Shown one piece after another: positions 12,882 to 48,039 of a stretch of 64,000 nucleotides of DNA. A program made the translations under genes and the position numbers. Position 1 is the stretch's first letter, and each line of letters starts with the position of its first letter. Source of the stretch: Caballeronia sp. NK8. GTDB lineage: Bacteria > Pseudomonadota > Gammaproteobacteria > Burkholderiales > Burkholderiaceae. Location: contig NZ_AP024326.1 in assembly GCF_018408855.1 (NCBI RefSeq), positions 868,001-932,000 on the forward strand, given 5' to 3'. The notes below the pieces were generated by a model. It was not told the origin of the DNA. It was given only the letters and a program-made list of their open reading frames with translations, and made no database searches.

Positions 12882-12933
12882 CTTTTCGCTCCGAAAAAAA
12901 GGAGCGGCCCTTTCGGGATGCGCTCCCAAAGGG
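12882..12933 (-). promoter_or_regulatory. Structured leader of the PP-loop gene
   Basis: Hairpin 1 (12908-12933) pairs CCCTTT with AAAGGG and GGG with CCC around the loop AGCGCAT. AGCG of that loop can pair with CGCT one base after the stem, giving a pseudoknot. Hairpin 2 pairs CGCTCC with GGAGCG over a T-rich loop and hides the SD just before the ATG. The loop and the SD compete for the same CGCTCC strand. Confidence 0.7.
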
Positions 12934-12954
12934 TTGAAAGGGTCATGGTCTAAG

Positions 12955-13770
12955 TCAGATCGAAAGGTCAGCCGTCGCGCGTTGCGCTTCTTCAAGGCCG
13001 TCGTGCGCTGCGGCGAACATGTCGGCTTGACGCGTTGCGCGATCCAGCCGAGGAAGCGTCTTCGCATACCGGCTCACGCTGGTACCGTCGAAACTATCCG
13101 CACCGGCGGCCGCACAAATGCGAATGCGCCGCGCCGAGCTCACGCGGCCGACGTGCAGGTAGCAGTGACGCCGTCGCGCGAGGGACCCACACACGTGCGC
13201 CGTCTGTTCTTTCCACTCCGTTGAACCGCCGATGAAGATGCCGACAGCAGGCGACAGAAGCGAGGCGAGGTCTTCGACCTGCATACCGTTCTGAACGGCG
13301 ATCAGCATCCGGCACGGCATCCCGCGAAGTCGTTCCAGCCACTTTAGCGAGTAGTCGAGGGACGCCATGCCGCCCATGACGATGTCCGGAAGGACAAGCC
13401 AATCGGCCCGCTCGCCGAGTCGTTCGACGGCGACCGCAAACGCGTGCTCATCGAAGGGCTGACCCTGCTGGTACGCGGTCCAAGCGCCGTTGTCCAACGC
13501 AGAGCGATCGAAGCCCTCGGTACGCAACTCGCCCTTTGCCGAGACCAACAAGCGCCAGTCGGCGCCCTTGAGTGCGGCCAGGTTGCGGCGGGTGCCCGTG
13601 CGGCTCGCGTAACCGATGAGCGGCTGCCGATGCATTGCGATCCGCTCTTCGATTTCCGGGTCATCGTCAGCAGACCCGTCGACTACGTAGTACTCGGCGT
13701 AGGACATGAACGCTTGCGCATAGCCGGTCTTCTGGCCACTGGCGTATTGCTCCAGCCACGGCGGCGTCAT
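12955..13770 (-). CDS. DpdA-like protein (TGT/queuine tRNA-ribosyltransferase fold)
   Basis: 271 aa from ATG 13770, overlapping the upstream stop as ATGA. The sequence has the barrel-type signature of small phage and plasmid DpdA/TGT relatives: IGYASRTGTRRNL, ALDNGAWTAY (putative catalytic Asp), LVLPDIVMGGM, MLIAVQNGM, IFIGGSTEWKEQT, and HVGRVSSARRIRICAAAGADSFDGTSVS. DpdA swaps guanine for a 7-deazaguanine (preQ0) in DNA. Cys/His zinc ligands of tRNA TGT are not evident. Substrate is inferred from family resemblance only. No preQ0 synthesis gene is in the window, so the host would have to supply it. Confidence 0.65.
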   Translation of the reverse strand: MTPPWLEQYASGQKTGYAQAFMSYAEYYVVDGSADDDPEIEERIAMHRQPLIGYASRTGTRRNLAALKGADWRLLVSAKGELRTEGFDRSALDNGAWTAYQQGQPFDEHAFAVAVERLGERADWLVLPDIVMGGMASLDYSLKWLERLRGMPCRMLIAVQNGMQVEDLASLLSPAVGIFIGGSTEWKEQTAHVCGSLARRRHCYLHVGRVSSARRIRICAAAGADSFDGTSVSRYAKTLPRLDRATRQADMFAAAHDGLEEAQRATADLSI

Positions 13771-13952
13771 TGGCGCACCCCGTTTTGGGGTTGCACTCTG
13801 CCGCCGATGATCAGGAAGACCTTCGTATCGACGTTCCGGACCCACGGGCGAACTTCGCCCGCGTGCGTCGCGGTGCCGGCGATGTAACCAATCGCCGCTT
13901 CAAGGTTGGCGAACTGCTCCGGCGATGCGCCCAGCTTCGCTGCTTCAAACAT
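13767..13952 (-). CDS. Small hypothetical protein
   Basis: 61 aa, MFEAAKLGASPEQFANLEAA... The first half predicts helices with EQFANLEAAIGYIAG, the second two strands (DTKVFLIIGGRVQ). No family recognised. It is preceded by a full structured leader with a masked SD, and its stop overlaps the DpdA-like start, both good signs that it is translated. It may help the DpdA-like protein or simply couple its translation. Confidence 0.65.
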   Translation of the reverse strand: MFEAAKLGASPEQFANLEAAIGYIAGTATHAGEVRPWVRNVDTKVFLIIGGRVQPQNGVRQ

Positions 13953-14010
13953 GAAAACACTCCACAGAAAGAACGCGGAGCGACCCTAGCGGGCCGCTTG
14001 CCCGCAAGGG
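13953..14010 (-). promoter_or_regulatory. Structured leader of the 61-aa gene
   Basis: Hairpin 1 (13984-14010) is CCCTTGCGGG against CCCGCTAGGG with loop CAAGCGG. AGCG in the loop can pair with CGCT one base past the stem. Hairpin 2 pairs CTCC (13977-13980 region) with the SD GGAG at 13960-13963, seven bases before the ATG. Confidence 0.7.
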
Positions 14011-14044
14011 TTGACAAAAGAAATTGGACGGCGTTTCGCGCCGC

Positions 14045-14431
14045 TTACTCGATCAGCTTGACGCTTTGCCACCAGCGACCGCCCGAGGGCAAGTCTCTGA
14101 CGAAAGAGAACGCGTCCGCTTCTTTGCGCGTGAGCTCAATCACCCCGCCCTTCAATAGGGCCGCCTGGAGATAGATGACATTCGCAAGGGCGAGCGCGCC
14201 GTGCTTTTCGGCGATGCCGGTGAGCGTTTCGACGGCATCGAAGAGTTCGGCATGAAACTGCTTGGCGTCAGCGGCGAGACGAAGCGATACATCCGCTTCG
14301 CCGATTGCGCCCAATACCGCATCGCACTGAGCTTGCGGGTCGTCCGGTCCGTACTGCTCGGGTTTGATCCAGTTTCGGATCACCATGTCGTTCAGTACGT
14401 CGTCAACGAAATCAGTGCAGGAATAGGCCAT
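14045..14431 (-). CDS. Hypothetical protein
   Basis: 128 aa, MAYSCTDFVDDVLNDMVIRNW... Soluble, largely helical, with an acidic N-terminal half (EQYGPDDPQAQCDAVL) and a basic C-terminus. No family recognised. It sits in the middle of the operon between the Rad50-like gene and the DpdA-like gene, has an SD-masking hairpin directly upstream, and is followed by the leader of the next gene. Confidence 0.65.
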   Translation of the reverse strand: MAYSCTDFVDDVLNDMVIRNWIKPEQYGPDDPQAQCDAVLGAIGEADVSLRLAADAKQFHAELFDAVETLTGIAEKHGALALANVIYLQAALLKGGVIELTRKEADAFSFVRDLPSGGRWWQSVKLIE

Positions 14432-14467
14432 GGAAGGCTCCAGTCAAGAAGTGGAACAGAATGAGCC
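14432..14467 (-). promoter_or_regulatory. SD-masking hairpin of the 128-aa gene
   Basis: GGCTC (14463-14467) pairs with GAGCC (14436-14440) across 22 bases and covers part of the SD just before ATG 14431. The first hairpin of the leader family is absent because the previous gene ends only 40 bp upstream. Confidence 0.5.
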
Positions 14468-14471
14468 GGTG

Positions 14472-14651
14472 TTAGATGCGACGCAGACGGCCGTTATCGA
14501 ACGCGGACGCGCGACGCAGGTCCGGCGGCCGCGGCGGTTTCGATTGCGCAGTGGCCGGTGCGGCTTGCTGCGCTGGCGGCTCGTGACGCATCGCGTTCGA
14601 ATGAGACGGACTGCCGGCTGCGGCGAGCAGCAGCATCAAAAGGTTTGCCAT
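14472..14651 (-). CDS. Small Pro/Ala-rich protein with hydrophobic N-terminus
   Basis: 59 aa, start ATG 14651. The N-terminus MANLLMLLLAAAGS is a short hydrophobic stretch that could anchor it in the membrane or act as a weak signal; the rest is rich in Pro, Ala, Gln and Arg (PPAQQAAPATAQSKPPRPPDL). No family recognised. It lies between the Rad50-like gene and the 128-aa gene with its own structured leader. The SD is weak. Confidence 0.55.
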   Translation of the reverse strand: MANLLMLLLAAAGSPSHSNAMRHEPPAQQAAPATAQSKPPRPPDLRRASAFDNGRLRRI

Positions 14652-14730
14652 AGTGGATAGCGCCGAAGGGCGCGAGAAAATGAAAGAGGAGCGAGAAGCG
14701 CCCCTCGTGGGGGGCGACTCCCCACAAGGG
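14652..14730 (-). promoter_or_regulatory. Structured leader of the 59-aa gene
   Basis: Hairpin 1 (14702-14730) is an 11-bp stem CCCTTGTGGGG against CCCCACGAGGG with loop AGTCGC. CGCC at the loop edge can pair with GGCG right after the stem. A second tight hairpin GCGCCcttcGGCGC (14660-14673) lies just before the ATG, but here no clear GGAG is masked. Confidence 0.6.
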
Positions 14731-14740
14731 CTAATAAAGA

Positions 14741-17062
14741 TCAGGCGGCAAGCGCCTGTACGTCGATGACTGCGTCGGCCTCTGCAACAAGGTCGGGCGT
14801 CTGAGAGATAAAGAACTCCCGTTGATATCCGCCTTGGCGCAGCACTTCGCGCTTCATTCGCATGAACTGCACTTTGCGCTCGGGATCGAGTGGGCCGTCT
14901 GACTCGTCGCTGAACAAGGTCTGATACGGCTGACCGGTGTTCTGCGCGAGATAGAGCGCGATGCCCCGCGTGAGGCACTCGTTGATCCAGACCTTCTGAC
15001 CGCCGGACATGACGGAGACCGACTTGCTGCTGTCGGACTCGGCGTCGTGAACCAGAATCTCGAAGCCCTCACGCAGTTCGCCGCTTGCGAGCGTGCGCTG
15101 CGTGCGGATCTCAACGGTGAAGCGCATGCCGTAGCACGCGAGCAATAGCTCGTTGACGGTGTGCGTCAGCGCTGGACCCGCGTCATCGATGGTCAACGCG
15201 ATCACGCCGTCGTTGCCCAAGCCCTTAGCCAGCAGCTTCCAATGAGCAATCTCGTCGGAGAGGCGATCGACACGCGACTGCGTGGCCGTGAACTTCTCCA
15301 ACTCCAGCGCCAGGGCTTCCGCTTCGGCCTGCAACACACTCTGCGCGCGGATCGATTGCTCGATTCGACCATCCAGTGCCGCGACGGTCTCCCGGTTCGC
15401 TGCGATGTCGCGGTCAAGCTTCGCAATCGCTGCCGTAGCGTCGACGGAAGCGAGTCGCCCGACCTCCTCGGTAATGCGCGCAAGCTCCGCTTCCATACGC
15501 GTCTTCTCAGACTGGAACTTGGCGGTACGTGCGGCACTTTCCTCGGCGATCGAACGCAACTCAGCTTGCGCCGCTTCAAGTCCCGACACGGCTGCATCGA
15601 GCAATGGCTTAGTGGCGGCAAGCTCTGCCGCCGCCTGCAAGGCGCGGCGCAACTGCGCGGCCGCATCGGTGATGGCGAGCATCTCAACACGCTTCGCCGC
15701 CAATTCAGCCGGCACCAGCGCCAAGGCTTCGGCCTTCGCTTTCTTCTCGCGATATTCCGCCCGAAGATTCGCCACCGAAAGACGCTGCACCTCCGCTTGC
15801 TCTTTTGCTTGAAAGGCTTGCGCGAGCAGCGGACATTGCGCATGCATCGAATGACCGACGCACGGCACCTGCTCCGCCACCGCTGCCTGCTTGCTCAACG
15901 TGTCGAAGTGCGCGGCTTTCGTCGTGCCCTGGTTCATCAAGCTGGTAAGCGTTGCATCGAGCGTCGTCAACGTCGCGCGTTTGACCTCCAAATCGGCAAT
16001 GTCGCGCTGCAGGGGAGCAAACCTCGCTTCCTCGCGCGCAATCGCCAACTCGGCCTCCTCGCGCTTCGCCGCCGCACCGAGGATCGCCTCGCGGCGAGCC
16101 AGCGTTGCTTGGTGCGTGGCCACGGTTCGACTCAGCACGGAAACGCGCTGCTGACAACGAAGCGCCGCTGCCTGCTCGTCGTCGGCCGCGCTTTTCAGGG
16201 CACGCCCCAACTCGTCGCGGCGCACGCCCAGTTCTCGCAGGCGCGCCTCAGTTGTGGCCGATTCGCTTTGCTTCGCCGCAAGCGTCGCCCGTTCTTGAGT
16301 CAGCTTGCTCGCGTGCTCCAGCGCGGCGTCGCGTTGCTCCCGAGCGGCACGCAAGGTGTTGCCCTGCGCGACGATCGACTGCTCAGCGTCTGCTTTACGT
16401 TGCCGCTTTCCGGCGAGCGCGCCAAGCTCAGACTGGATGCCTTCGAGCGACTTGCTGAGCACTTTCGCGACCTCACCGGCTTTCGCCGACAATGCCTTCA
16501 GGTGGTCGATGCCAAGGAGTTCAGCCAGCAGCGTCTTGATCTCGCCCGCACCGTAGGACGCGAGCGGCCGCCGGTTCTGAGCCGAAAACACGCTCGTAAA
16601 GAACGTTTCCAACGAACCGTTGATCGCCTCGACACAGCGGTTATACGACTCCGCCTTGCCGTCCGACACCGTTCCGTCAGGCAGCGACACCGGGCGCCAC
16701 GTACCGTCGACGCCACGATAGGCAAGGTAATACTCAGCCTTGCCGGTCTTGCCGGGCTTGCGAAACGTGAAGGACGAGCGATAGCGAATGCCATCGTGCT
16801 CCCATACAAGTTCCTTCAACGCACTGGTGCCACAGATGTGATCCCAGTACGAGAAGGCGTCGACCGACAGCTTCGAAGCACGCGACGGCATGATCGGATA
16901 CGGGTGTAGGTTATCCATGATCGTTGTCTTGCCCGCCCCGTTGGGGCCGGTCAAGGCGATCAGGCCATCCGGCAACGTCTCCAGATTGAGCGTCACGCTG
17001 TCGCGCTTCATGCCATCGCGCACGCCAACGAAGCCTTCAAGCGTCAGTTTCAGAGGCCGCAT
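14741..17062 (-). CDS. Rad50/SbcC-like ATPase
   Basis: 773 aa from ATG 17062 (MRPLKLTLEGFVG); a longer frame exists but the SbcC N-terminus begins here. Walker A is TGPNGAGKTT (residues 39-47). A long coiled coil follows, interrupted by a hook with two Cys (CVGHSMHAQC) near the middle, then a return coil. The C-terminal ABC signature is VMSGGQKVW and the Walker B/D-loop is LFSDESDGPLDPE. With its Mre11-like partner (17826-19253) it would form a DNA end-processing nuclease. Shorter than chromosomal SbcC (about 1000 aa). Its start overlaps the 182-aa gene by 13 bp. Confidence 0.88.
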   Translation of the reverse strand: MRPLKLTLEGFVGVRDGMKRDSVTLNLETLPDGLIALTGPNGAGKTTIMDNLHPYPIMPSRASKLSVDAFSYWDHICGTSALKELVWEHDGIRYRSSFTFRKPGKTGKAEYYLAYRGVDGTWRPVSLPDGTVSDGKAESYNRCVEAINGSLETFFTSVFSAQNRRPLASYGAGEIKTLLAELLGIDHLKALSAKAGEVAKVLSKSLEGIQSELGALAGKRQRKADAEQSIVAQGNTLRAAREQRDAALEHASKLTQERATLAAKQSESATTEARLRELGVRRDELGRALKSAADDEQAAALRCQQRVSVLSRTVATHQATLARREAILGAAAKREEAELAIAREEARFAPLQRDIADLEVKRATLTTLDATLTSLMNQGTTKAAHFDTLSKQAAVAEQVPCVGHSMHAQCPLLAQAFQAKEQAEVQRLSVANLRAEYREKKAKAEALALVPAELAAKRVEMLAITDAAAQLRRALQAAAELAATKPLLDAAVSGLEAAQAELRSIAEESAARTAKFQSEKTRMEAELARITEEVGRLASVDATAAIAKLDRDIAANRETVAALDGRIEQSIRAQSVLQAEAEALALELEKFTATQSRVDRLSDEIAHWKLLAKGLGNDGVIALTIDDAGPALTHTVNELLLACYGMRFTVEIRTQRTLASGELREGFEILVHDAESDSSKSVSVMSGGQKVWINECLTRGIALYLAQNTGQPYQTLFSDESDGPLDPERKVQFMRMKREVLRQGGYQREFFISQTPDLVAEADAVIDVQALAA

Positions 17063-17598
17063 GACAGATCCTCCGGCGCGCTCATCGACGCCGACATAGC
17101 AGCCATCTGCGCATAGAAAGCGTCGTCGTCCTCGTTGGGAAACGGCTCGTTCATCACGACCGACGGCACAGACTGCACCGCTGCTTTGGGCGCTTGAAGC
17201 GTCCCGTCTAGTGCGGCCGCCACTTTGTCGCAGACTCTGCCGAACTCGCGACGCGCGTTCGTCAGGAGCTCGGACCAACCGCTATGCCCGGTGAGGCTGC
17301 GGATCTCGGCAGGAGACCACTGGCTTGCATACCCTTCCTGATACGACCACAGAAGGTGCTGCATCTCAACCGTCGGCGTGACAGCAACCTCGCACGCGCC
17401 GGGCGTCGTGGCGAGCAGCAACAGCGTCTGACCGATCTGCGCCAACACTGCGCCGCGGTGTTGGCCGAAGGGCTGATGCTGAATCGCCGGGGTGAACCCA
17501 GCGAAATCGACCAACGACTTTTGAAGGTCACGCGATGAGCAGTCGCCCAACGCAAAGGTGCGAACCCAGTTCGGGCCAGCGGGATAAAGACCAAACAT
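17050..17598 (-). CDS. Hypothetical protein between SbcD- and SbcC-like genes
   Basis: 182 aa, MFGLYPAGPNWVRTFALGDC... Soluble, with a central helical part and an acidic, Met/Ser-rich tail (EDDDAFYAQMAAMSASMSAPED). No family recognised. It overlaps the Rad50-like gene and begins a unit with the full leader, so it is probably co-made with the nuclease. Its constant place between the two nuclease subunits suggests an accessory role. Confidence 0.7.
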   Translation of the reverse strand: MFGLYPAGPNWVRTFALGDCSSRDLQKSLVDFAGFTPAIQHQPFGQHRGAVLAQIGQTLLLLATTPGACEVAVTPTVEMQHLLWSYQEGYASQWSPAEIRSLTGHSGWSELLTNARREFGRVCDKVAAALDGTLQAPKAAVQSVPSVVMNEPFPNEDDDAFYAQMAAMSASMSAPEDLSCGL

Positions 17599-17741
17599 GA
17601 TGCACTCCGTTATGGTGGACGGAATGCGGCCCCGGTAGGGATCGCTCCCCGCCAGGGTGAAAGAAGAAATGAACTGCTAGAGAAAGGTCCTGCCACTACG
17701 AATCGATGCGTCAAAGACGCGGTGAAACCTCTGTTTCGATA
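17599..17741 (-). promoter_or_regulatory. Promoter-proximal hairpin and structured leader, 17.6-kb unit
   Basis: The 5' hairpin GCGTC-ttt-GACGC (17708-17720) is followed by hairpin 1 (17631-17657, loop AGCGAT) whose GCG can pair with CGC one base past the stem. Hairpin 2 pairs CATTCCGT (17619-17626) with ACGGAGTG (17603-17610), eight pairs including one G-T, hiding the SD of the 182-aa gene. A -10-like TATCGA lies about 15 bp upstream of the 5' hairpin. Confidence 0.65.
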
Positions 17742-17825
17742 GCGACGATCAAAATCGGCTATCGGAACACGGCTTGCGTGTTCAAGCAAAGGAGTCATAC
17801 TGGCCTCCCCTGCATGCGCGGCTAC

Positions 17826-19253
17826 CTACGCCGCAAACAAATCATCGTTGAGCCACGAAAGCTGATCTGCCGAAGCCGACTCGACGATTTCCACCGTCGC
17901 ATCGGGCATTGGTAGTGCTTCGTCGTTATCGACGTCACTCGGACGCTCTTGGACAGCCACCGGCGTAGCCTCGGACTTGCTCGACAATGCGGGCAGTCCG
18001 TCAGTTGCGAACGGATGCGCCCCCTCGGCGTCGCTCAGTCGCGCCAGCACGCCAGCGGCGATTGCCTCCGCGTCCCCCGTTTCCAGCAACTGCAGCCGGT
18101 CAAGCAAGGGCGCCGGACCAACATCAGCGTGCTCGCACCACCGCTCGAGCTTTCGGTCAATCGACGTTTCAAGGCTGATGCCTTGAGCGCGTGACCGGAC
18201 GACGGGAAGAATGCGGGCTTCGACCTTCAGCTCGGCCGCGTTGCCGAACAGCGCCGCGATCGCGTCGCGGTCCACTGACTGTTTGTGCTCTTCGTCGACC
18301 TGCCAACGAATTCGCACGAACTTGTCGGTCGCATCGAGCGCGATTGCCGTCAGGCGTTGCATGTCGGGCGGTCCGTCAAAGTCGACGCAGATCGTCTGCC
18401 GGGACGGCGTCACGACCAGATCGGCTTGCGCGCTTCCCACCTCGACATTCCACATGAGGAAGCCCTTGTCGCCTTCCTCACCGTAGTGGAATCGCCCGAT
18501 CGAACCGGGATACGCCACGACGCGCCCCGCTCGCTTCCACTGCTGGGCTTTATGGATGTGCCCAAGCATGAAGGCATCGCATTCGGCCTCGAACAGACTG
18601 CCAAGCGAAAATTCGTGGTCGAATCCCGCCATCGTCACGCCGTGCTCGGTCGTACAACCGTTGACCGTGCCGTGGGAGACCCCGACAGTTCGAATTCCCG
18701 CGGCTCGAAGCTGCTGGTTGATGCGCCCTGCCGCGGCAAGATAATCACCTAGCACGGCTTCAAGACCCGTCCCGGCTTCCCTGGCACCAACGGCAGCCGC
18801 CAGTTGCCCCTTGTTGACCGTAGGCAAGCAGGTGAACACGACATCGGCGCCGATCGCGAGCACCTCGCGTAGCTCCTCGTCGGAGTACACCGGGCCGCTC
18901 GATGGATAGAACCTCCCTTCATGTACGCTCACCTGCTGGACACGTTCCGCCACATAGATCTGATGCCTCGTTGCCATTAGTTCGAAATTGCGTAGCGTGC
19001 CCGGCGGCTCATGGGAGAACGTGCCCTGCAGCATCAAGACCGGCATGCTGCCGCTCAGGCCGTTGATGCGCCGCGCTAGCCGGTTCAACGAAGGGGCATG
19101 GGCGTCGAGACGATGGTCCGTCGCGTCGCCCGAGATCACCGCAACATCGGCGTGTGCGAGAACCGCGTGGTCGGTGGCAAAGCCAAAGCATCGGTCCGAT
19201 TCTTCGAGGTTTCCCGGCGCGTAGTGCAAGTCAGAAAAATGAGCGATTTTCAA
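17826..19253 (-). CDS. Mre11/SbcD-like nuclease
   Basis: 475 aa. The start is a TTG at 19251-19253 with a strong AGGAGG eight bases upstream; it begins KIAHFSDLHYAPG, the first metallophosphoesterase motif. Others follow: VISGDATD, LQGTFSHE (in place of the usual GNHD/E), VSHGTV and LGHIHKAQ. The C-terminal 120 residues are acidic and Ser/Ala-rich, probably disordered. Partner of the Rad50-like protein for DNA-end cutting. Last gene before the 17.6-kb unit. Confidence 0.85.
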   Translation of the reverse strand: MKIAHFSDLHYAPGNLEESDRCFGFATDHAVLAHADVAVISGDATDHRLDAHAPSLNRLARRINGLSGSMPVLMLQGTFSHEPPGTLRNFELMATRHQIYVAERVQQVSVHEGRFYPSSGPVYSDEELREVLAIGADVVFTCLPTVNKGQLAAAVGAREAGTGLEAVLGDYLAAAGRINQQLRAAGIRTVGVSHGTVNGCTTEHGVTMAGFDHEFSLGSLFEAECDAFMLGHIHKAQQWKRAGRVVAYPGSIGRFHYGEEGDKGFLMWNVEVGSAQADLVVTPSRQTICVDFDGPPDMQRLTAIALDATDKFVRIRWQVDEEHKQSVDRDAIAALFGNAAELKVEARILPVVRSRAQGISLETSIDRKLERWCEHADVGPAPLLDRLQLLETGDAEAIAAGVLARLSDAEGAHPFATDGLPALSSKSEATPVAVQERPSDVDNDEALPMPDATVEIVESASADQLSWLNDDLFAA

Positions 19254-19342
19254 AGTCGCCTCCTAGAAATGAAAATGGCCACCCGAAGGCAGCCAATGGA
19301 TGTCGAATGCGCCACGAGGGCGCGTTCGAAAGGTCATTAGGA
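19254..19342 (-). promoter_or_regulatory. Leader of the Mre11-like gene
   Basis: A 5' hairpin GCGCC-ctcgt-GGCGC at 19309-19323, flanked by CG and ATTCGACA, resembles the 5' hairpins at 17708, 22101, 43372 and 48009. A second hairpin TGGC-tgCCttcGGgt-GGCCA follows at about 19276-19297, then the open SD AGGAGG. The start codon is TTG, which would keep expression low. Confidence 0.5.
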
Positions 19343-19819
19343 ACTGAGCGTGTCGCGAACTTTCATCAGTGCTTGGCCAAGGAGGTTCTGGCCACGCCAC
19401 TTCGATTTGTCAGTGATGTCAGGATGGTGCGCGCCTAAGCCCACGCCCCAGATCAGATCGTAGGGACTGGCTTCGACAAGTTCGGTCGGTGCCGTTGCGA
19501 GCAACAGCGTCCATAGCCCCGGATCCTGCGCGAACTTCTCCCGGCACCCGACATAGACGATCGACTCGCGCTTGGCCTTCCACGTTTCGAGGTCGAAGTT
19601 TTTGACCTTGCGGCCGAGGGCTTTTTGTTCCTTGGGCAGATGCGTGGCGAGCACAGCCTGAGCGATGTCCTCGTCGCCAAACAGCTTGGCTTTGGAGAAC
19701 ATCATGAACTGCTCGACGCTGACAAAATCGACGTCGTGATACGAAAAGCGGCACGGATGCCAGTTGCTAAAAGCGTCCTCCGCGCCGAAGAACAGCGTGA
19801 AGTTGCCGACTCTACGCAT
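19337..19819 (-). CDS. NADAR/YbiA-family (DUF1768) N-glycosidase
   Basis: 160 aa from ATG 19819 with GGAG upstream. The family core is clear: FGAEDAFSNWHPCRFSY, VSVEQFMMFSKAKLFGD, LGRKVKNFDLETWKAKRE, and the C-terminal YDLIWGVGLGAHHPDITDKSKW with GQNLLGQALMKVRDTL. NADAR proteins hydrolyse N-glycosidic bonds: YbiA acts on riboflavin intermediates, and others remove ADP-ribose from guanine bases, reversing DarT-type toxins. In this operon a nucleic-acid repair or anti-toxin role is more likely. The stop overlaps the promoter region of the Mre11-like gene. Confidence 0.88.
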   Translation of the reverse strand: MRRVGNFTLFFGAEDAFSNWHPCRFSYHDVDFVSVEQFMMFSKAKLFGDEDIAQAVLATHLPKEQKALGRKVKNFDLETWKAKRESIVYVGCREKFAQDPGLWTLLLATAPTELVEASPYDLIWGVGLGAHHPDITDKSKWRGQNLLGQALMKVRDTLSS

Positions 19820-19985
19820 CGGAATCTCCTTCGCGTGAACAAGTAGATGGGCCGCCGAAGCGGACAAATTCGATGCGCAGGTGCAGCGCGGTCGAAAACA
19901 TTTGAGCATGCGGTCCTTGCTGAAATGCTCTCATGCGCGAGCGTAGAAGAAGGGATGCCAGCCCCCATTCGGGGACTGGCCAAGG

Positions 19986-21314
19986 TTAGACGTATGCAGC
20001 TTGTGCGATCGCGTCCTGAATTTCGACGTCAAGCGAGGCGGGATCATCGAGCGCGTTCTTAAGACGTGCATTCATCGCATCGACATCAGCGATGCGTTCG
20101 ATCCAGCCGCGACCGTACGTCTGGTGCGCGTACTTGCGAAAGCCGTTCTGTCGCTCCGGCTGACTTAGGCCCAGACGATGCAGCAGGTCGGACATACGCT
20201 GACGCTTGTCCTCCAGCGTCTCATCGGGGTCGGGCGAGTCGTCGTCATGACCACCTGCGCCGTCGATGCCCGATGGCGCTCCATCGCCTGCCCGTTCGGC
20301 CTCAGATTGCTCCTGCTCGGGCTGAAGGGCCGGTTCGACAATCGACTGTACCGTCCCGTCTGACTCCAACAGCGCCACCGCACGACTGGCAGCATCGAGC
20401 GCCGGTTGAGCCTCGTCCGCGCCGTCCAACAGCGCGCCTAGGTCGATATCGGCATCGAGCACCGTCAACATCTGCTTCTGACGCACGGCCTGGCCATTGT
20501 CGTCAATCCGCGTGATGTCAAACTCTTTCTTCGAAAGCCAGAAGCGCGTACCGGTGAGCCTGCCACGCGCCAATGCCACGGTCTGCATCGCAGAATACGC
20601 TTTCTGCAGCACGTAGATGGAGTTGGTCGGCAGCTCGATCAGCCCGAGTCCCTTCACGTCCGGAACTGCAAACAAGAAGTTTGCGATCAGGTTGCACTTG
20701 CGGTCCTGATACTGCGGACAGACGTGAGGATCACAGACGCCATCGGGAATGTCGTCGTCTTGCCGGTGAACGACCAGTCGCCCACCGAAGGATCGTCGCG
20801 CCCGCTGTGCGCGTGCGTTACGCTCGACCGGCGCGTAAGTCTTGCAATAGCGTTTGCCGTCGCGGTCGTACTCCGAGAAGTACTGTCGCCCGGTTGTCGT
20901 GTACGCGGCCATCTGATTCGGCACATTGCGCAGCCAGTCGTCGAACGCGAACATGATCGGGAAGCGGTATAGCCGCAACCCGTGACCGCGATCTTCGCCA
21001 TACAGCCGCAGGATCTCGTCCGCCGTGTCGGGATTCGAGAAATCCGAGCGTCTGCAGACGAAGTAGTCGACGTTGCGCGGAATGAGCGCGTTGCGCAGCT
21101 TCAGCGACGTTTCGAGCACCTTGCCGATCGCTTCGAACGACTCACCCGCGGCCACCATGTCGTTATAGAGCTTGACCGCTTTTTCGTTGGCTTGATGCGC
21201 CCGCGTGAGCACCTTGATACCGGGTCGAATCTTGCCGATCGTGGGCGGGCGAATAGCTCGTTCTTCAACGAGACTACGCGGCGCGTGATCGAACATCTGA
21301 ACTACTGCATTCAT
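19986..21314 (-). CDS. gp3-like recombination-directionality/metal-binding protein
   Basis: 442 aa, start ATG 21314 overlapping the upstream stop (ATGA). It matches, by recall, proteins labelled 'hydrolase or metal-binding protein' of the L5 gp3-like family: IRPGIKVLTRAHQANEKAVKLY, FVCRRSDF, ILRLYGEDRGHGLRLYRFP, CDPHVCPQYQDRKCNLI (likely Cys metal site near residue 220) and LIELPTNSIYVLQ. The last 130 residues are acidic and disordered. Related phage proteins are linked to recombination direction. The label is tentative but the protein is long and well formed. Confidence 0.6.
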   Translation of the reverse strand: MNAVVQMFDHAPRSLVEERAIRPPTIGKIRPGIKVLTRAHQANEKAVKLYNDMVAAGESFEAIGKVLETSLKLRNALIPRNVDYFVCRRSDFSNPDTADEILRLYGEDRGHGLRLYRFPIMFAFDDWLRNVPNQMAAYTTTGRQYFSEYDRDGKRYCKTYAPVERNARAQRARRSFGGRLVVHRQDDDIPDGVCDPHVCPQYQDRKCNLIANFLFAVPDVKGLGLIELPTNSIYVLQKAYSAMQTVALARGRLTGTRFWLSKKEFDITRIDDNGQAVRQKQMLTVLDADIDLGALLDGADEAQPALDAASRAVALLESDGTVQSIVEPALQPEQEQSEAERAGDGAPSGIDGAGGHDDDSPDPDETLEDKRQRMSDLLHRLGLSQPERQNGFRKYAHQTYGRGWIERIADVDAMNARLKNALDDPASLDVEIQDAIAQAAYV

Positions 21315-21580
21315 GATGGTTTCCTCGCGAGAAAGAAGATGGCGTTGGTCCGCAGCGTTTCGGCCTGAGATTGCATCTCTCGGGCTGCCGCACTGCCGCG
21401 ACGTTCGCTGACATGGGAAATGAAGACAGAGCGCTCTGCGTCGCTGAACATCGCGACTCGAGCTACTTCGCACCGCTCACGCCACACAGGGGACGTAGTG
21501 TCCGCCTGCTCGCGCTCGGTATTGATTTGATGCTTGATGGCCTCGGCGATACGCTGATTGAGGCGGTCGGGCAATAGCAT
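21311..21580 (-). CDS. Small hypothetical helical protein
   Basis: 89 aa from ATG 21580 with GGAGG ten bases upstream. MLLPDRLNQRIAEAIKHQINTE begins a fully helical, highly charged protein (WRERCEVARVAMFSDAERSVFISHV, SAAAREMQSQAETLR). No family recognised; small helical DNA-element proteins often bind DNA or partners. First gene of its unit, behind a long leader with an internal terminator, and coupled to the gp3-like gene. Confidence 0.65.
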   Translation of the reverse strand: MLLPDRLNQRIAEAIKHQINTEREQADTTSPVWRERCEVARVAMFSDAERSVFISHVSERRGSAAAREMQSQAETLRTNAIFFLARKPS

Positions 21581-21663: not shown

Positions 21664-21684
21664 TTCGTGAAATCGATATAGAGA

Positions 21685-21723
21685 CCTGCACGCCACGTCC
21701 CTTCCGGGGACGTGGCGTGCAGG
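21685..21723 (-). other. Very strong 17-bp hairpin in the leader
   Basis: CCTGCACGCCACGTCCC pairs perfectly with its complement across a 5-base loop. Such stems can be transcription-stable leader elements or protein-binding sites. It lies immediately upstream of the terminator at 21632-21663. Confidence 0.7.
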
Positions 21724-22211
21724 GAGCGGCCGGCATAAGCCGGGGTCGCTCGATCAGAGAACGTAAAGTCGTTCTCGCGCAGCATGGTCACGCCGCGCAA
21801 CAGCCCTTTTCGGAATTACTTCCGCCGCAGGAATCACGGATCAGCCAACTTCGATCGTTCTACCCAGATCAGGCTCTGGAGAGAGAACACCCGAAAACCC
21901 GGGTTCGAACGATGTACCGGCGCAAATGAATGCGGCTCAGGGTACGAGTATCACGGCTGAAATTGGGGAGTGTGTAGCGAGCACACTCAGCACAAGGAAG
22001 ATTTCCACACCGGTAGCTATCCGGTCGGCGCATGCCAACGCACGGGGCGGGCACGACTTGCAGAAAAAAGATGGACTCCGGGCTTGGAGTCGAGGTCGAT
22101 GCGTCGGCGACGCGGGGAATGGAGTTGAGTATCCGGGTTAATGACGTGCGCGTGCGCTTGAAAGCTCACGAAATTCATATAGCTTTCGCCCGTTCGACTC
22201 TTGCCTAATCA

Positions 22212-41213: not shown

Positions 41214-41222
41214 GACGCCCCC

Positions 41223-42244: not shown

Positions 42245-43270
42245 TTACTCGCCGCGGATGATTTTTCCGATCTCTCCGGCTTGCGCGGCAATGAAGGCAT
42301 ACGAGTTCTGGATCTGCGGCGAGCGCTGGACAGCGTCTCGCACGAGCAGCGCCGCAAACTCGCGATGCCCTTCACCGATCAGACGCTCGGTGTAGCGCAC
42401 GACGCGATCAAAGTTGTTTTCGTTCGCGCGTGCCGCAAGCGCGGCCGCGACCGCGTACAACGCCGCCGGCATCGTCGGAATCATCGCCGTGTCAGGCGCG
42501 AGAAGAATCGCGTCCGGATTCGGCAGTTCGCGGAAGATCTGGAGGAAGCCAACAAGCTCGGTTGCGGCACCCTCTCCCACCGAACCGGCGTAGGAGATGT
42601 GCTCCAGGTGCTTGGCGACTACATCCATGGTTTTCGCCACGAACCCCCAGCTACGCGGGCTCGGTGCGTTTTCGATATCGCGCGACGTCTTCTGCACGGA
42701 CAGCAAGTCCGGACGGAAGCGCAGGAACGCGATGAGCGCGGGCGGGATGTTTTCGCGCACGGCCCACTGCGTCCAGTCGTCGATAGTCGGTTCCAGCTCT
42801 ACCACCGTGGCGAAACGCGAGATCACCGGATCGAGAATCCCGGAGACACCAGCGTTGTCAGTGCGGCGGTTCGTGGCCGCGAGGAAAGTGACCTGCGGTG
42901 GCAGCACGTGCTCACCGACGCGCCGCGCGAGTAGCAACTGCATCTTCGCGGCTTGCACGGCGGGCGAGGCCTGCCCAAGGTCATCCAGAAACCAGATCAG
43001 CGGGCGTCTGGCGGTCATCGCGCGCTCCAAATCCCCGAACGGCAGGAACTTGGCGGTCGTGCCGTCGGGCGAAGGAAACGGCAACCCTTTCGAGTCGGTC
43101 GGATCCTCGACAACCGGGTGACTGATGAGCAGTTCGTGATCAGTCGCATGTGCGGTCTGCTCGACGATGTCGCTCTTGCCGATGCCGGGGCGGCCAGTGA
43201 TGAGCACCGGCAGACGCTTCGGCACGTACAGCGAGAGGAGTTCGGTGAGTTGAGCGGGCGTGACTTTCAT
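42245..43270 (-). CDS. MoxR-type AAA+ ATPase
   Basis: 341 aa from ATG 43270. Walker [15 protein letters not shown] near residue 25, Walker [10 protein letters not shown], sensor 1 FLAATNRRT and the arginine-finger region [11 protein letters not shown]. The second half is helical. MoxR ATPases act as chaperones that insert metals or assemble complexes with a VWA partner, here the protein at 39927. Its leader has the two-hairpin design with a masked SD. Confidence 0.92.
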
Positions 43271-43403
43271 GATGGCTTCCAAAGAGAAGCCCCATAAAGA
43301 CTACGCCCGTAGGGACGTGGTCCCTCAGGGGCAAGATATGAAAAAGCCGGCTCGTAGCCGGCTTGATCGATGCGTCAGTGACGCGGGTGATAGATGCAGT
43401 GTA
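43271..43403 (-). promoter_or_regulatory. Promoter-proximal hairpin, terminator-like stem and structured leader of MoxR gene
   Basis: Minus-strand order: -10-like TACACT (43398-43403), 5' hairpin GCGTC-act-GACGC (43372-43384), stem AAGCCGGC/GCCGGCTT with five T (43346-43366), hairpin 1 GCCC..GGGC with GGG/CCC (43305-43332, loop ACCACGT, ACG can pair with CGT after the stem), and hairpin 2 GGCTTC/GAAGCC (43274-43291) over the SD of ATG 43270. Confidence 0.65.
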
Positions 43404-43481
43404 GGGGTCGAGCGGTCAGGCAATTCGTGGAAAGGTCACTATTTCGCATCGTCTTAAGCTTTGGCGCTGGCGCAACCGACG

Positions 43482-43508
43482 AAAAAAAACCCGGCACGTA
43501 GCCGGGTT
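43482..43508 (-). terminator. Terminator after the 505-aa gene
   Basis: Minus-strand AACCCGGC-tacg-TGCCGGGTT followed by eight T, 14 bp after the stop at 43522. Confidence 0.92.
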
Positions 43509-43521
43509 CCTCGAAGGTGAA

Positions 43522-45039: not shown

Positions 45040-45101
45040 GGTCGATCGCCTCGGAAAAATTGCGGGCAATCGCTCCCTGTCGGGTCGATGCCCGGCAAGG
45101 G
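45040..45101 (-). promoter_or_regulatory. Structured leader of the 505-aa gene
   Basis: Hairpin 1 (45075-45101): CCCT..AGGG and CGGG..CCCG with loop CATCGA. ATCG in the loop can pair with CGAT (45069-45072) two bases past the stem. A weaker stem TTGCC/GGCGA covers part of the SD GAGG before ATG 45039. Confidence 0.65.
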
Positions 45102-45143
45102 TTAAGTGCGCCAAAACGGGCGCGGATACGAGTTGAGAAGCTA

Positions 45144-45602
45144 TTACGCCGCGTCGATTAGACGGGCAATCAGACGAGCGAGCGACCACGCGTGGTCAGT
45201 CGAAAACACCTTCGCCCGGAGCAACGGCATGATCGCGTAGGTGCGGTCGAGCGAGTCGCTAAGCTGCGGTCGGCTGATGAAGTCGACATGAATAAGCCAG
45301 CCCTCGCTGTTTCCCATGCACACGGAAACGGAGATTCGTTCGTATGACGACGGCTCGGGCCACGGTCTGCTGTGGCGCGCTCCGTACATGGCTTCGTTCG
45401 CGTCGTCCTGCAGGTTCGCGTGACAAAGCCACTCGGGTTCGAGCTCCGTTCCGCGCACGATGCGGCACAGATCTTGGAAGACCTGATCGACCGTTTTGCC
45501 GTCGGTGTCGAGCCGCGCGACTGACGTGATATCGACTACGCCATCGGCGCTGATACCGTTGGTGACAGGGTCCGACAGCACATCGGCGTTTGCTTGAGAC
45601 AT
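45144..45602 (-). CDS. Hypothetical protein
   Basis: 152 aa from ATG 45602 with AGGAG upstream. MSQANADVLSDPVTNGISAD begins a soluble alpha/beta protein (VSVCMGNSEGWLIHVDFISR, AIMPLLRAKVFSTDHAWSLA). No family recognised. Two terminator-like hairpins lie directly upstream. Confidence 0.7.
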   Translation of the reverse strand: MSQANADVLSDPVTNGISADGVVDITSVARLDTDGKTVDQVFQDLCRIVRGTELEPEWLCHANLQDDANEAMYGARHSRPWPEPSSYERISVSVCMGNSEGWLIHVDFISRPQLSDSLDRTYAIMPLLRAKVFSTDHAWSLARLIARLIDAA

Positions 45603-45617
45603 AACCAGCTCCTGAAA

Positions 45618-45642
45618 TGAAAAACGCGCCCGGAGGCGCGCT
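45618..45642 (-). terminator. Attenuator-like hairpin before the 152-aa gene
   Basis: Minus-strand CGCGCC-tccg-GGCGCG followed by TTTTT, ending about 15 bases before the ATG at 45602 and directly before its SD. It may end most transcripts or, through CCTCC in the loop, touch the SD. Confidence 0.6.
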
Positions 45643-45656
45643 AGAAAAAGGAAGTC

Positions 45657-45686
45657 AAAAAAAAACCGCACCCCAAAGGGTGCGGT
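45657..45686 (-). terminator. Terminator after the 36-aa gene
   Basis: Minus-strand ACCGCACCC-tttg-GGGTGCGGT followed by nine T, 34 bp past the stop of the 36-aa gene. Confidence 0.92.
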
Positions 45687-45719
45687 CTTGTCTGTGGACT
45701 CAGCTTGCGCTGTGTCGAA

Positions 45720-45830
45720 TCATTTGCCCCACTCGCGTTCGCGATCGGCTTTTTGCCCGTTATGCCCGGTCCAGAGGAAGAAACCGGCAATGGAGAGGCC
45801 AAGCACTACCGTGAAAATCGTCGCACCCAT
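45720..45830 (-). CDS. 36-aa membrane protein
   Basis: ATG 45830 has a perfect AGGAG six bases upstream, inside the end of the previous gene. The peptide MGATIFTVVLGLSIAGFFLW is a membrane helix, followed by a charged tail TGHNGQKADREREWGK. No family recognised. It ends the 46.7-45.7 kb unit. Very small but well supported by SD, position and membrane profile. Confidence 0.65.
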   Translation of the reverse strand: MGATIFTVVLGLSIAGFFLWTGHNGQKADREREWGK

Positions 45831-45831
45831 T

Positions 45832-46293
45832 TCACTCTCCTTTCATATTGAAATAGCCGCAGTACCATAATACTAACCCAAGCGCTGCAAGTGCGATCGT
45901 GTTCACTGCTGTTAGCAGGTCCCACGACGCCGCCGAATGCGCGTAGCCTACTGCGCCGACTATTGAGGCCGCTGAGAGCGTATGCAGTAGACGCCCGTTC
46001 TGCTGGCGCTGGTCCTTGGTCGGCGTCTTAATTGCATGAACTATCTGCCGCCATCCGGGGCGTGGGCCCGCTGGAATGGTGACTGCGTATCCGCCGCCGA
46101 CATTCGTCACCGGCAGGATGTAGCCCATGTACTCAAGTGTGAACGACGGCGAACACTCCGACTCCTCCATCTTGCCGAGTAGCCCGAGTACACGCGGTGC
46201 CAGATGAACCTGACCTGTTGTTGGATCGAAAGTCACCCGGTCCATGATCGTGGTGCCGGAGCTGTACTCGATTTTCACCTTCGCCAGCTTCAT
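45832..46293 (-). CDS. Hypothetical protein with C-terminal membrane helices
   Basis: 153 aa from ATG 46293 (MKLAKVKIEYSSGTTIM), overlapping the previous stop as ATGA. The first 90 residues are strand-rich and soluble (FDPTTGQVHLAPRVLG, YMGYILPVTNVGGGYAVTIP); two hydrophobic segments follow (HTLSAASIVGAVGYAHSA, LLTAVNTIALAALGLVLW). No family recognised. Confidence 0.7.
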   Translation of the reverse strand: MKLAKVKIEYSSGTTIMDRVTFDPTTGQVHLAPRVLGLLGKMEESECSPSFTLEYMGYILPVTNVGGGYAVTIPAGPRPGWRQIVHAIKTPTKDQRQQNGRLLHTLSAASIVGAVGYAHSAASWDLLTAVNTIALAALGLVLWYCGYFNMKGE

Positions 46294-46688
46294 CGACGAC
46301 CTCCGCACTTCAGATCGATGCCGCCAGCCAAACGCAGACCGTCCAGCATCGCTCGATAGCCCGCGGGCGTCTCGAGTTGCGTCAGGGCGACGTGGTTCTC
46401 GCCACCGCCCGTAAGGTCGGAGCGGCCGCGCCAGGTTCTGAAGCTCAGCTCGACACCTGAACCTCCTCGACGCTCGAGCACGTCGACAAACAAGGTCTCG
46501 GTACGCAACGACACCCGTACGGCAGCATTGCCGCGGCGGGTATCGGTGACGATCTCGTGAGCATGCGCCGGAATACGCAAGTCCTGGGCGACTCGTCGCA
46601 GAACGCGCGTCGCATGACGTTGCAGAGCCGCTTTCGCGCCGGCATTGGCACTACTGCGGTCCGCATAAAACACTCGGGGAAATTTCAT
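46290..46688 (-). CDS. Hypothetical protein
   Basis: 132 aa, MKFPRVFYADRSSANAGAKA... N-terminal helix, then strands (RRGNAAVRVSLRTETLFVDV, GVELSFRTWRGRSDLTGGGE). No family recognised. It has the clearest leader of the whole set: two perfect hairpins with a 5-bp loop-tail match. Coupled to the next gene. Confidence 0.7.
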   Translation of the reverse strand: MKFPRVFYADRSSANAGAKAALQRHATRVLRRVAQDLRIPAHAHEIVTDTRRGNAAVRVSLRTETLFVDVLERRGGSGVELSFRTWRGRSDLTGGGENHVALTQLETPAGYRAMLDGLRLAGGIDLKCGGRR

Positions 46689-46744
46689 GATTGCCTCATT
46701 GCAGACGAGGCAGGTCCCTTGCGGGGAGCCTGCCCCGCAAGGGT
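46689..46744 (-). promoter_or_regulatory. Structured leader, best-formed copy
   Basis: Hairpin 1 (46717-46744) is a perfect 11-bp stem CCCTTGCGGGG/CCCCGCAAGGG with loop CAGGCT. CAGG (GCAGG with the stem edge) can pair with CCTG(C) one base after the stem. Hairpin 2 pairs TGCCTC (46708-46713) with GAGGCA (46693-46698), fully hiding the SD four bases before ATG 46688. Confidence 0.8.
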
Positions 46745-46798
46745 TGGCGCGGTTTTCACCGCGCTATCAAGATTGTCGGTCCCGCTAGCGACCGGGCT

Positions 46799-47260
46799 TT
46801 AATGAGTGATCCGGTAGCCGGACCCATTCGAGACGAGAAATACCTGCTGACCAGGAGCGAACTGCTGATCGTCGACCTGCGTGACGACCACCGTCTGACC
46901 GTTGGCGCGACGAAGGAAGACTTCGACACCGCTGTGGCGAGACATAACGGCGCTTACGCGCTGAGCCACCAACCCGGAAACCGAGCCGGAAAGCGCGCCG
47001 GCGATATAGCGGCCGCTACCGTTGCCGATGACTTGCGAGCCCAGGAACGCACCTGCTGCTGCGCTGAAGATCGAAGCAATGCCCGACGAGCCAGAATTGC
47101 TCTCGATGGTGATCGGGCGCACGCGCAGGATGGTTGCCTGCTCGAACTGGCCGATGCTTTGAACGTCGTAGCGCTGGTAGGTATCCGGCGAGCCGAAGTC
47201 CGCCGTGGCGCAGCCAGTCAGAGACGAAAGAAGCAACACGGAACAGAAAAACTTGATCAT
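46799..47260 (-). CDS. Lipoprotein, glycine-zipper type
   Basis: 153 aa. Lipoprotein signal MIKFFCSVLLLSSLTGCATA with the lipobox LTGC (Cys16). The mature part has a Gly-zipper region (IFSAAAGAFLGSQVIGNGSG, AGALSGSVSGLVAQ) like the Rickettsia 17-kDa/SlyB family, then a strand-rich tail. Likely outer-membrane; in a conjugative context it could act as a VirB7-like or entry-exclusion lipoprotein, but that is inference. Confidence 0.8.
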   Translation of the reverse strand: MIKFFCSVLLLSSLTGCATADFGSPDTYQRYDVQSIGQFEQATILRVRPITIESNSGSSGIASIFSAAAGAFLGSQVIGNGSGRYIAGALSGSVSGLVAQRVSAVMSRHSGVEVFLRRANGQTVVVTQVDDQQFAPGQQVFLVSNGSGYRITH

Positions 47261-47322
47261 GGATCACCTCGATTGAATGTGAGGCAATCCATTCCCGAAG
47301 GGGCTGGTTTGCCCCAAAGGGA
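47261..47322 (-). promoter_or_regulatory. Structured leader of the lipoprotein gene
   Basis: Hairpin 1 (47293-47322): TCCC..GGGA and GGGGC..GCCCC with loop AAACCA; CCA can pair with TGG just after the stem. Hairpin 2: TTGCCTC (47281-47287) pairs with GAGGTGA (47264-47270), two G-T pairs, hiding the SD. Confidence 0.7.
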
Positions 47323-47359
47323 AGAGAAACGGGAATTACGCAGCGAAAAGCTACGTGAG

Positions 47360-47494
47360 TCAGTGGGTGACCGAGGCGATTGCCGTCGAGACGTACACGA
47401 CGACAACGAGAAACGACAGAATCTTCCAGGCTTCGGCGTCCTGCTTGGCGTACCAGGCGAGGCTGCTGAGAGCGTGTTTGAGCATGGGAAACAT
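47360..47494 (-). CDS. 44-aa membrane protein
   Basis: From ATG 47494: MFPMLKHALSSLAWYAKQDA then a membrane helix KILSFLVVVVYVSTAIASV and a short end. A longer frame upstream is not coding because it runs through the leader. No family recognised. The leader with a masked SD supports translation. Confidence 0.65.
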   Translation of the reverse strand: MFPMLKHALSSLAWYAKQDAEAWKILSFLVVVVYVSTAIASVTH

Positions 47495-47546
47495 GGGCAA
47501 CTCCCGAAATGTAGGAGCCGCCCTTGATGGGAGGCTCCCATCAAGG
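47495..47546 (-). promoter_or_regulatory. Structured leader of the 44-aa gene
   Basis: Hairpin 1 (47522-47546): CCTTGATGGGA/TCCCATCAAGG, an 11-bp stem with a GCC loop; AGCC can pair with GGCT two bases past the stem. Hairpin 2: CTCC (47514-47517) pairs with GGAG (47501-47504), the SD, seven bases before ATG 47494. Confidence 0.75.
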
Positions 47547-47562
47547 AAAGATTTGGACCTGA

Positions 47563-47594
47563 AGAAACGGCGTCCAGCGAACCGCACTGGACGC
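47563..47594 (-). terminator. Terminator-like hairpin between the 81-aa and 44-aa genes
   Basis: Minus-strand GCGTCCAG-tgcggttcg-CTGGACGC followed by CGTTTCTTC. The T-run is imperfect, so it may be weak. Confidence 0.6.
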
Positions 47595-47609
47595 GTCATT
47601 TACGAAGAC

Positions 47610-47855
47610 CTACGAGGCGGTATGGCTGAGGTGATGCAGTCTGACACGACCGCTTTGCACCAGATGCCGTTCGGCTGGACGGTTGAGCGAATAGTCCCAA
47701 TCCACCATTGCCGTGCCGTCGCTCCACACCGAATGAATGCGTCCGGTGTAAAGCTGCGGCGGGCTGGCCTCGACGTCCTGACCGACCACACGCTGATTCG
47801 CCATGAAACCGTTCTTGCTGGAAACTTTGACGACAGGTGCGAGATTGCGAGACAT
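47610..47855 (-). CDS. Small basic hypothetical protein
   Basis: 81 aa from ATG 47855. MSRNLAPVVKVSSKNGFMAN begins a strand-rich protein (TGRIHSVWSDGTAMVDWDYS, RHLVQSGRVRLHHL) that could be a small SH3- or KOW-like barrel; this is from secondary-structure pattern only. First gene of the 47.9-45.7 kb unit. Confidence 0.65.
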   Translation of the reverse strand: MSRNLAPVVKVSSKNGFMANQRVVGQDVEASPPQLYTGRIHSVWSDGTAMVDWDYSLNRPAERHLVQSGRVRLHHLSHTAS

Positions 47856-48039
47856 AGACAACTCCAAAAAAATAGTGGGAGCTGTCTCCCGGAGGGATAG
47901 GCTCCCGACGGGACGAAAAAAGGCGACCAACGAGGGTCGCCAGAAGATTGCCGTCATAGACGGCTGGAGAGAAGCTGGTCCTCCAGCACGCTGGAGGGGT
48001 AGGTCGATGCGCTAAAGCGCGGGGAATGGAGCCAGTCTA
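47856..48039 (-). promoter_or_regulatory. Promoter-proximal hairpin, terminator and structured leader, 47.9-kb unit
   Basis: Minus-strand order: -10-like TAGACT (48034-48039); 5' hairpin GCGC-ttta-GCGC (48009-48020); CTCCAGC/GCTGGAG stem; terminator GGCGACC/GGTCGCC with six T (47914-47940); hairpin 1 CCCG..CGGG, GGG..CCC (47888-47912, loop AGCCTAT); hairpin 2 GACAGCTCC (47878-47886) with GGAGTTGTC (47857-47865), nine pairs covering the SD. GAGC of hairpin 1 matches GCTC of hairpin 2. Confidence 0.7.

Follow-up and report, generated by a model that had tools for sequence, protein, structure and literature searches.

Two-hairpin leaders before genes of conjugative elements keep two exclusive partners for one anti-Shine-Dalgarno strand

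Leader architecture and its two pairings

The window analysed here is a 64,000-nucleotide stretch of Caballeronia sp. NK8 (contig C5, positions 868001-932000, of a 9.2-Mb genome in 7 contigs), and it carries a family of two-hairpin leader RNAs in front of at least nine genes. The leader is probably a bistable translational switch, repeated before genes of establishment, maintenance and DNA processing; this reading rests on comparison of sequences and on predicted folds. It consists of six segments in the order 1 (CCC), 2 (GGG and a loop, with a copy of the Shine-Dalgarno (SD) strand), 3 (CCC), 4 (GGG), 5 (the anti-SD strand) and 6 (the SD). The initial annotation had described stems that can hide the SD. 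These stems are present, but they are an incomplete description, as the interior of hairpin 1 is a copy of the SD strand in most leaders. The anti-SD strand therefore has two exclusive partners, the SD itself (pairing 5:6) or the copy in segment 2 (pairing 2:5). In the closed state 1:4 and 2:3 would make hairpin 1 and 5:6 would hide the SD, with translation off. In the open state 2:5 would pair around a small 3:4 hairpin, hairpin 1 would be dismantled and the SD would become single-stranded, with translation on. The CCC-GGG-CCC-GGG order would follow from the SD, which sets the anti-SD, which sets the SD copy, which in turn sets its CCC, GGG and CCC partners. An H-type pseudoknot was considered for the pairing of the loop with the anti-SD strand and dropped, since folds with the SD blocked show a nested 2:5 enclosing 3:4 and a pseudoknot is unneeded.

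Two covariance models were built, R1 from 16 leaders (two of them from the window, at 12881 and 47855) and R2 from plasmid and integrative and conjugative element (ICE) leaders. Both include pairing 5:6 and not 2:5. The Infernal alignment A7 gave no information on column-wise covariation, since the length of segment 5 varies and its columns are out of register; pairing was tested by segment-wise permutation instead. The first test took 40 leaders, 35 representing ten gene families and five others. Segment 2 pairs with its own anti-SD strand at −15.0 kcal/mol and with those of other families at −9.5 kcal/mol (z = −12.0); with one leader per family (15 groups) the median z is −6.7. A second set of 81 leaders comes from 20 loci of the order's other families, none of them in the training set. 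Here z is −16.3, the median with one leader per locus is −7.6, the weakest of 200 draws is −5.3, and 54% of the leaders pair better than with at least 90% of foreign partners. The third test covers 268 nonredundant leaders of 85 loci, training leaders included, and gives z = 29.7 for 2:5 and 28.3 for 5:6, the latter partly selected for because R1 and R2 contain 5:6; none of 5000 permutations reaches either value. At least 7 contiguous base pairs form between segments 2 and 5 in 160 of the 268 leaders, compared with 46 when partners are shifted, and all six pair types are found at each of the segment 2 loop positions 4-9. G-T pairs are frequent in 2:5 (82 of 236 at position 3), which suits RNA better than DNA. 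These comparative tests show that pairings 2:5 and 5:6 have both been kept by evolution.

Predicted folding states

Folding without constraint gives 221 closed, 45 open and 2 other forms among the 268 leaders. When the SD arm is blocked, 34 of the 40 leaders of the first test and 225 of the 268 fold into the open form, with 2:5 around the small 3:4 hairpin, and among these 225 the open form is favoured in 24%. In the independent set the open form is taken by 60 of 81 leaders if the RNA stops short of the SD, and by 8 of 81 at full length. Folding predicts a closed ground state for most copies and favours the open form as long as the SD is unmade or occupied.

Leader sites in the window

The initial annotation placed two-hairpin leaders before ten genes, all on the minus strand. 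Nine of these sites hold, one of them as a variant, while 14651 is doubtful. In folds of the 110 nt preceding each ATG, hairpin 1 is followed by an SD-containing hairpin at 12881, 13952, 17598, 45039, 46688, 47260, 47494 and 47855. At 43270 no two-hairpin fold appears in 110 nt; when less sequence is folded, two hairpins form and the SD is hidden, the second hairpin lying more downstream. By its predicted fold this is a variant leader, and orthologues retain it. At 14651 a GC-rich hairpin is present, but the sequence 5' of the ATG shows no SD arm when folded; no coding sequence is listed at this position in the near-identical Caballeronia zhejiangensis plasmid p3, whose gene table is known to be incomplete. 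The sites are as follows.

12882-12937, minus strand: leader of the 601-aa PAPS-reductase-domain gene (ATG 12881); hairpin 1 12908-12933, segment 2 12921-12927, anti-SD 12900-12906, SD arm 12887-12892; 2:5 of 7 bp; opens with the SD blocked; R1 E = 1e-14, training-set member
13953-14013, minus strand: leader of a 61-aa gene (ATG 13952); two clear hairpins; R1 E = 4e-10
14652-14733, minus strand: doubtful leader of a 60-aa open reading frame (ORF; ATG 14651); no SD hairpin; R1 E = 0.053
17599-17660, minus strand: leader of a 182-aa gene preceding the SbcC-like ATPase gene (ATG 17598); supported by the fold; R1 E = 4e-7
43271-43334, minus strand: variant leader of the 341-aa AAA ATPase gene (ATG 43270); R1 match 43293-43334, E = 3e-5
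45040-45104, minus strand: leader of the 505-aa gene (ATG 45039); supported by the fold; R1 E = 5e-3
46689-46746, minus strand: leader of a 132-aa gene (ATG 46688); hairpin 1 46716-46743, segment 2 46729-46738, anti-SD 46705-46714, SD arm 46692-46697; 2:5 of 10 bp; opens with the SD blocked; R1 E = 1.4e-3
47261-47325, minus strand: leader of the 153-aa glycine-zipper protein gene (ATG 47260); segment 2 47309-47316, anti-SD 47280-47287, SD arm 47261-47270; 2:5 of 8 bp; R1 E = 3e-4
47495-47549, minus strand: leader of a 44-aa gene (ATG 47494); 2:5 of 8 bp; R1 E = 1e-8
47856-47916, minus strand: leader of an 81-aa gene (ATG 47855); 2:5 of 6 bp; R1 E = 1e-14, training-set member

Scanning with a descriptor recovers the reported minus-strand starts except 14651, nine leaders in all, plus one plus-strand match antisense to 47494. 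The descriptor pattern was derived from the window copies themselves, so the independent check is R1, which recovers the eight non-training sites with E from 4e-10 to 0.053. R1 gives one extra match in the window, at 45600-45683 on the minus strand (E = 1e-4), and the next has E = 0.13. The extra match is probably not a leader. It holds two terminator-like hairpins with T-runs plus an SD, immediately 5' of a gene start. In the whole host genome all 21 R1 matches with E < 0.01 fall in two elements, C5:880.9-987.5 kb and C7:343.8-411.2 kb; the best match on any other contig has E = 0.018.

Distribution and genes behind the leaders

R1 at E ≤ 0.01 finds leaders in 52 of 300 genomes of the order Burkholderiales, the host included. 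The matches often form same-strand arrays, some of them within single-contig chromosomes, and judging from gene content these chromosomal arrays appear to be ICEs. R2 at E ≤ 1e-4 has matches in 18 of 274 genomes of the class, 16 of them beyond the order; 14 of these 16 stretches fit a loose leader pattern and two (L156 and L166) do not. A SNF2-type helicase encoded behind leaders leads to 80 named loci, 49 of which were searched. R2 at E ≤ 3e-4 finds 152 leaders in 46 of these loci, 150 of them on the strand of the gene. Leader loci include Paraburkholderia xenovorans LB400 chromosome 1, Stutzerimonas stutzeri KOS6 and Neisseria weixii, and the leaders are also present in ICE-like loci of other proteobacteria. 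Among viral contigs, where only the ICE-type leader was sought, a single stretch fits its exact pattern. A scan of relatives, which used a loose pattern and folding energies for hairpin 1 and the SD-containing hairpin and left the pairing of hairpin 1 with the anti-SD strand unused, gives 149 leaders in 42 loci, before 19 protein clusters, ten of them with more than one member. Orthologous genes in Caballeronia and related genera retain the leader despite changed letters. The initial annotation had suggested a single family in which pairing is kept while the letters drift, and the covariance search bears this out, with matches far beyond the window.

The leader genes encode RecT, ArdC-N and antirestriction proteins, RadC, SNF2 helicases, DUF6094 methyltransferases, proteins with DUF3799, DUF932, DUF3275, DUF6573 and DUF7168, and PRTRC ParB, the last also in the element to which the window belongs. 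In the window their products include the PAPS-reductase-domain protein, the AAA ATPase and the glycine-zipper protein. Many products have no family (4 of 10 in one sample and 9 of 10 in another). Antirestriction, recombination and other genes of this type are typical of leading or establishment regions. Anti-defence genes are placed in leading regions in one report (PMC11541004). PRTRC ParB scores above the cut-off in 10 of the 300 genomes of the order, and 9 of these 10 have leaders. Leaders are also found in 43 of the 290 remaining genomes, with no PRTRC ParB over the cut-off; PRTRC is therefore associated but not required, and dependence of the leaders on it was rejected.

Flank, linker and gene context

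The nine positions 5' of hairpin 1 are rich in pyrimidines, poor in G and terminate in A. The final A is present in 82% of 297 leaders and in 69% of 126 leaders found without flank information, and G reaches at most 13% and 17% in the two sets; the model covers only the last four flank positions. This flank is possibly a contact site. The linker from the anti-SD strand to the SD contains 54-59% T and 14-17% A, whereas the matching stretch of 28 genes without a leader has 26% T and 19% A. T is at its maximum 2-6 nt past segment 5, with 0.71-0.74 at +2 to +5 in one set, and a linker with at least 5 T of 8 occurs in 39%, 57% and 56% of three leader sets. A long ORF ends no more than 90 nt upstream in 209 of the 297 leaders, at a median of 33 nt before hairpin 1, and the leaders mostly occupy short gaps between co-directional genes.

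Proposed mechanism and alternatives

In the proposed switch, the leaders would jointly set the translation of genes for establishment, maintenance and DNA processing of conjugative plasmids and ICEs. A shared trigger would flip the switch through the common core, that is, the strand exchange of hairpin 1 and the pyrimidine-rich CAACCC flank, or a short-lived open state of the nascent RNA would do so instead. We infer the sign of the off and on states, the joint control and the trigger.

Several points weigh against the switch. The open form exists only as a prediction and costs a median of 4.4 kcal/mol over the closed form among the 225 leaders that open, half of them within 5 kcal/mol, and 43 of the 268 leaders stay unopened even with the SD blocked. 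In the window, the leader at 13952 has a weak second pairing and stays shut with the SD blocked. In the first test 2:5 has no partner-specific advantage in family 6, in a single member of family 2 and in a few others. In 15 leaders linked to radC RNA (see below), a crude parse gives a 2:5 pairing of 4-9 bp with a median of 5, which does not exceed that of shifted partners elsewhere. The selected part of the 5:6 score belongs here as well, and the T-rich linker behind 2:5 would equally fit termination.

This last point leads to the main rival, a transcription attenuator in which 2:5 with the inner 3:4 and the T-rich linker forms an intrinsic terminator, hairpin 1 is the antiterminator and hiding of the SD is a second lock. 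The T content of the linker, more than that of the leaderless genes, and the T-run close to segment 5 favour it. So do the 60 of 81 leaders in which RNA cut short of the SD folds 2:5, and so does a simple scan of a 5-kb stretch, with 20 terminator-like sites where 6.0 are expected, only some of these sites being in leaders. However, about half of the leaders have no such T-run (46688 for example), conservation of 5:6 beyond the SD core is left unexplained, and the many serial leaders between close genes would be strongly polar. We regard the attenuator as rather unlikely; it is compatible with the switch, is opposite in sign, and may apply to some members of the family. Static SD-hiding hairpins, which would give low translation or coupling to neighbours with hairpin 1 as a mere spacer, are consistent with the closed ground state predicted for 221 of the 268 leaders. 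They have no need for an SD-strand copy in hairpin 1, and loci that did not serve for training show a partner-specific 2:5, which makes this explanation unlikely.

The remaining alternatives bring in an outside partner or a different molecule. The sbcD RNA (RF01757; window 21682-21831, minus strand) could act in trans by pairing with CAACCC before hairpin 1 and opening the leaders. It is present in the window and in all four related loci scanned, 41 of 45 genomes carrying it also have the 505-aa gene, its stretch AAA(A/T)GGG(T/C)TG can pair with segment 1 and the flank, and a terminator-like hairpin with a T-run lies downstream. The pairing is 1.6 standard deviations better than shuffled and barely better on the own plasmid than on other plasmids (z = −1.9; 20 plasmids, 20 of 26 loci parsed), and Rfam has no match to this RNA in seven leader-rich loci of other families. 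On this weak signal the sbcD RNA was set aside as quite unlikely, and no shared factor operating the leaders was found beyond this candidate. Repression of the CsrA/RsmA type, with a dimer bound to GGA in the loop of hairpin 1 and in the SD, accords with the GGA of the SDs and with the presence of GGA at both sites in some leaders. Segment 2 contains GGA in only 36 of 113, 47 of 77 and 68 of 147 leaders of three sets; since loop GGA is not general, CsrA was rejected as the general regulator, and this mode of control is very unlikely. Hairpins of single-stranded DNA active in transfer or recombination would suit the location on conjugative elements, but the position tied to the SD and to the gene strand (150 of 152) and the numerous G-T pairs make them most improbable.

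Returning to the switch, we tentatively extend it, with more doubt than confidence, to a stand-alone RNA switch of an aptamer-free class, with a single translational regulon on each conjugative element across proteobacteria. The regulon would be shut in established hosts and give a burst of antirestriction, recombination, methylation and partition proteins on entry, opened by an RNA or protein encoded by the element or by still-refolding transcripts of the newly arrived element. Segments 2, 5 and 6 could drift freely if they change together, which would have hidden the family from sequence searches. If the switch reading is right, numerous genes of plasmids and ICEs, among them those for antirestriction proteins, RecT, RadC, ParB and helicases and many of unknown function, stand under one unrecognised translational control; this would provide a handle on the timing of expression of establishment genes in conjugative elements, and the model could flag members of one element's regulon. 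The leaders look like an unrecognised means of joint control of many mobile-element genes.

The host element and its neighbourhood

Conjugation genes of the window encode TraD-, TraI_2- and VirB4-like proteins and a T2SSE-type ATPase. Two Caballeronia plasmids match an 8.3-kb stretch of the window at 92-93%, and the related plasmid pMOL28 is typed MOBH/MPF_T. The 505-aa gene has relatives in 51 plasmid records (46 from Cupriavidus, Burkholderia and Paraburkholderia) and, among the family's genomes, in 48 of 299; the protein has no match in the phage collection. The host genome has two copies of this gene, 95% alike, and two PRTRC ParB genes (C5:948924-950564 and C7:388503-390143), each with a leader match upstream, which indicates two related elements in one host.

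On the minus strand at 11076-21473 a cluster encodes the PAPS-reductase-domain protein, the SbcC-like ATPase, a metallophosphatase, a NADAR protein and a Gp3-like recombination directionality factor, and part of it is retained in pMOL28. A match to the Burkholderia small RNA (sRNA) ncS54 at 48741-48824 (minus strand) lies below threshold (38.3 bits against a gathering value of 43), and the copy in C. zhejiangensis p3 is above it (46 bits). The C. zhejiangensis plasmid (L034, 23777-23836, plus strand) also has a match barely above threshold to the Betaproteobacteria toxic small RNA (RF02278).

Comparison with known RNA families and systems

Rfam 15 has no match over any window leader at E up to 10, nor any match to leaders at gathering in seven leader-rich loci. 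The leaders are undescribed by any Rfam 15 family, in agreement with the initial annotation, which could match no described motif with certainty. In the portions of the published literature searched no description of the leaders was recognised; a 2017 survey of 224 candidate RNAs is a possible source beyond the content of Rfam.

The radC RNA (RF01754) is, like the leaders, a candidate cis-regulatory RNA of proteobacteria found before genes of the same kind of element. Its 149-nt consensus sits upstream of the leader, which in the 24 copies inspected lies between it and the start codon. The window lacks it at E up to 10, as do the seven leader-rich loci at gathering; in eight other loci Rfam finds it three times (L244 61-217, L244 1580-1728 and L218 808-953). 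The two-hairpin leader directly follows at both L244 sites, and the match at L244 61-217 extends 34 nt into the leader match at 184-251, where its last hairpin fits poorly. In five genomes, each of the 24 radC RNAs has a two-hairpin leader behind it; the strict pattern recognises 15 of these leaders and the other nine were identified by eye, so the radC RNA can be an extra upstream domain. Most leaders have no radC RNA; within the order, 5 of 200 genomes carry it and 52 of 300 carry the leader. The link between the two was not found in the parts consulted of the paper that describes radC RNA (PMC2864571).

The initial annotation had suggested comparison with STAXI (RF01728), which sections of the same paper present as a pseudoknot in two or three repeats, recorded for Enterobacteriales and located near antirestriction, SSB, topoisomerase and integrase genes (PMC2864571). 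Leaders and STAXI are alike in adjoining antirestriction-type genes of mobile elements. STAXI forms tandem pseudoknots, whereas each leader is a single nested switch before each SD, with exclusive pairings and one unit per gene. With this difference and no Rfam match, the leaders are not STAXI. The sbcD RNA (122 bits in the window) occurs on the same plasmids as the leaders, but it has a different structure, is present in single copy and overlaps no leader.

The repZ and repA leaders of IncI-alpha, IncB and IncL/M plasmids use the loop of an upstream stem to pair with the SD-hiding strand and free the SD; Asano and Mizobuchi (1998), cited in PMC10724649, treat this kind of system. The leaders described here share this pairing of an upstream-stem loop with the SD-hiding strand, as the permutation tests indicate. 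The repZ-type switch is a pseudoknot at one replication gene under antisense RNA control, whereas the leaders are nested, present in many copies and not known to have an antisense RNA. Exclusive anti-SD partners or a transient nascent fold are also features of translational riboswitch platforms, erm translation attenuators and hok mRNA. No conserved unpaired core of the riboswitch kind was seen in the leaders beyond the flank, and the conservation outside the pairings consists of this pyrimidine-rich stretch ending in A. The leaders differ from riboswitches, erm and hok in having many copies with private letters on one element.

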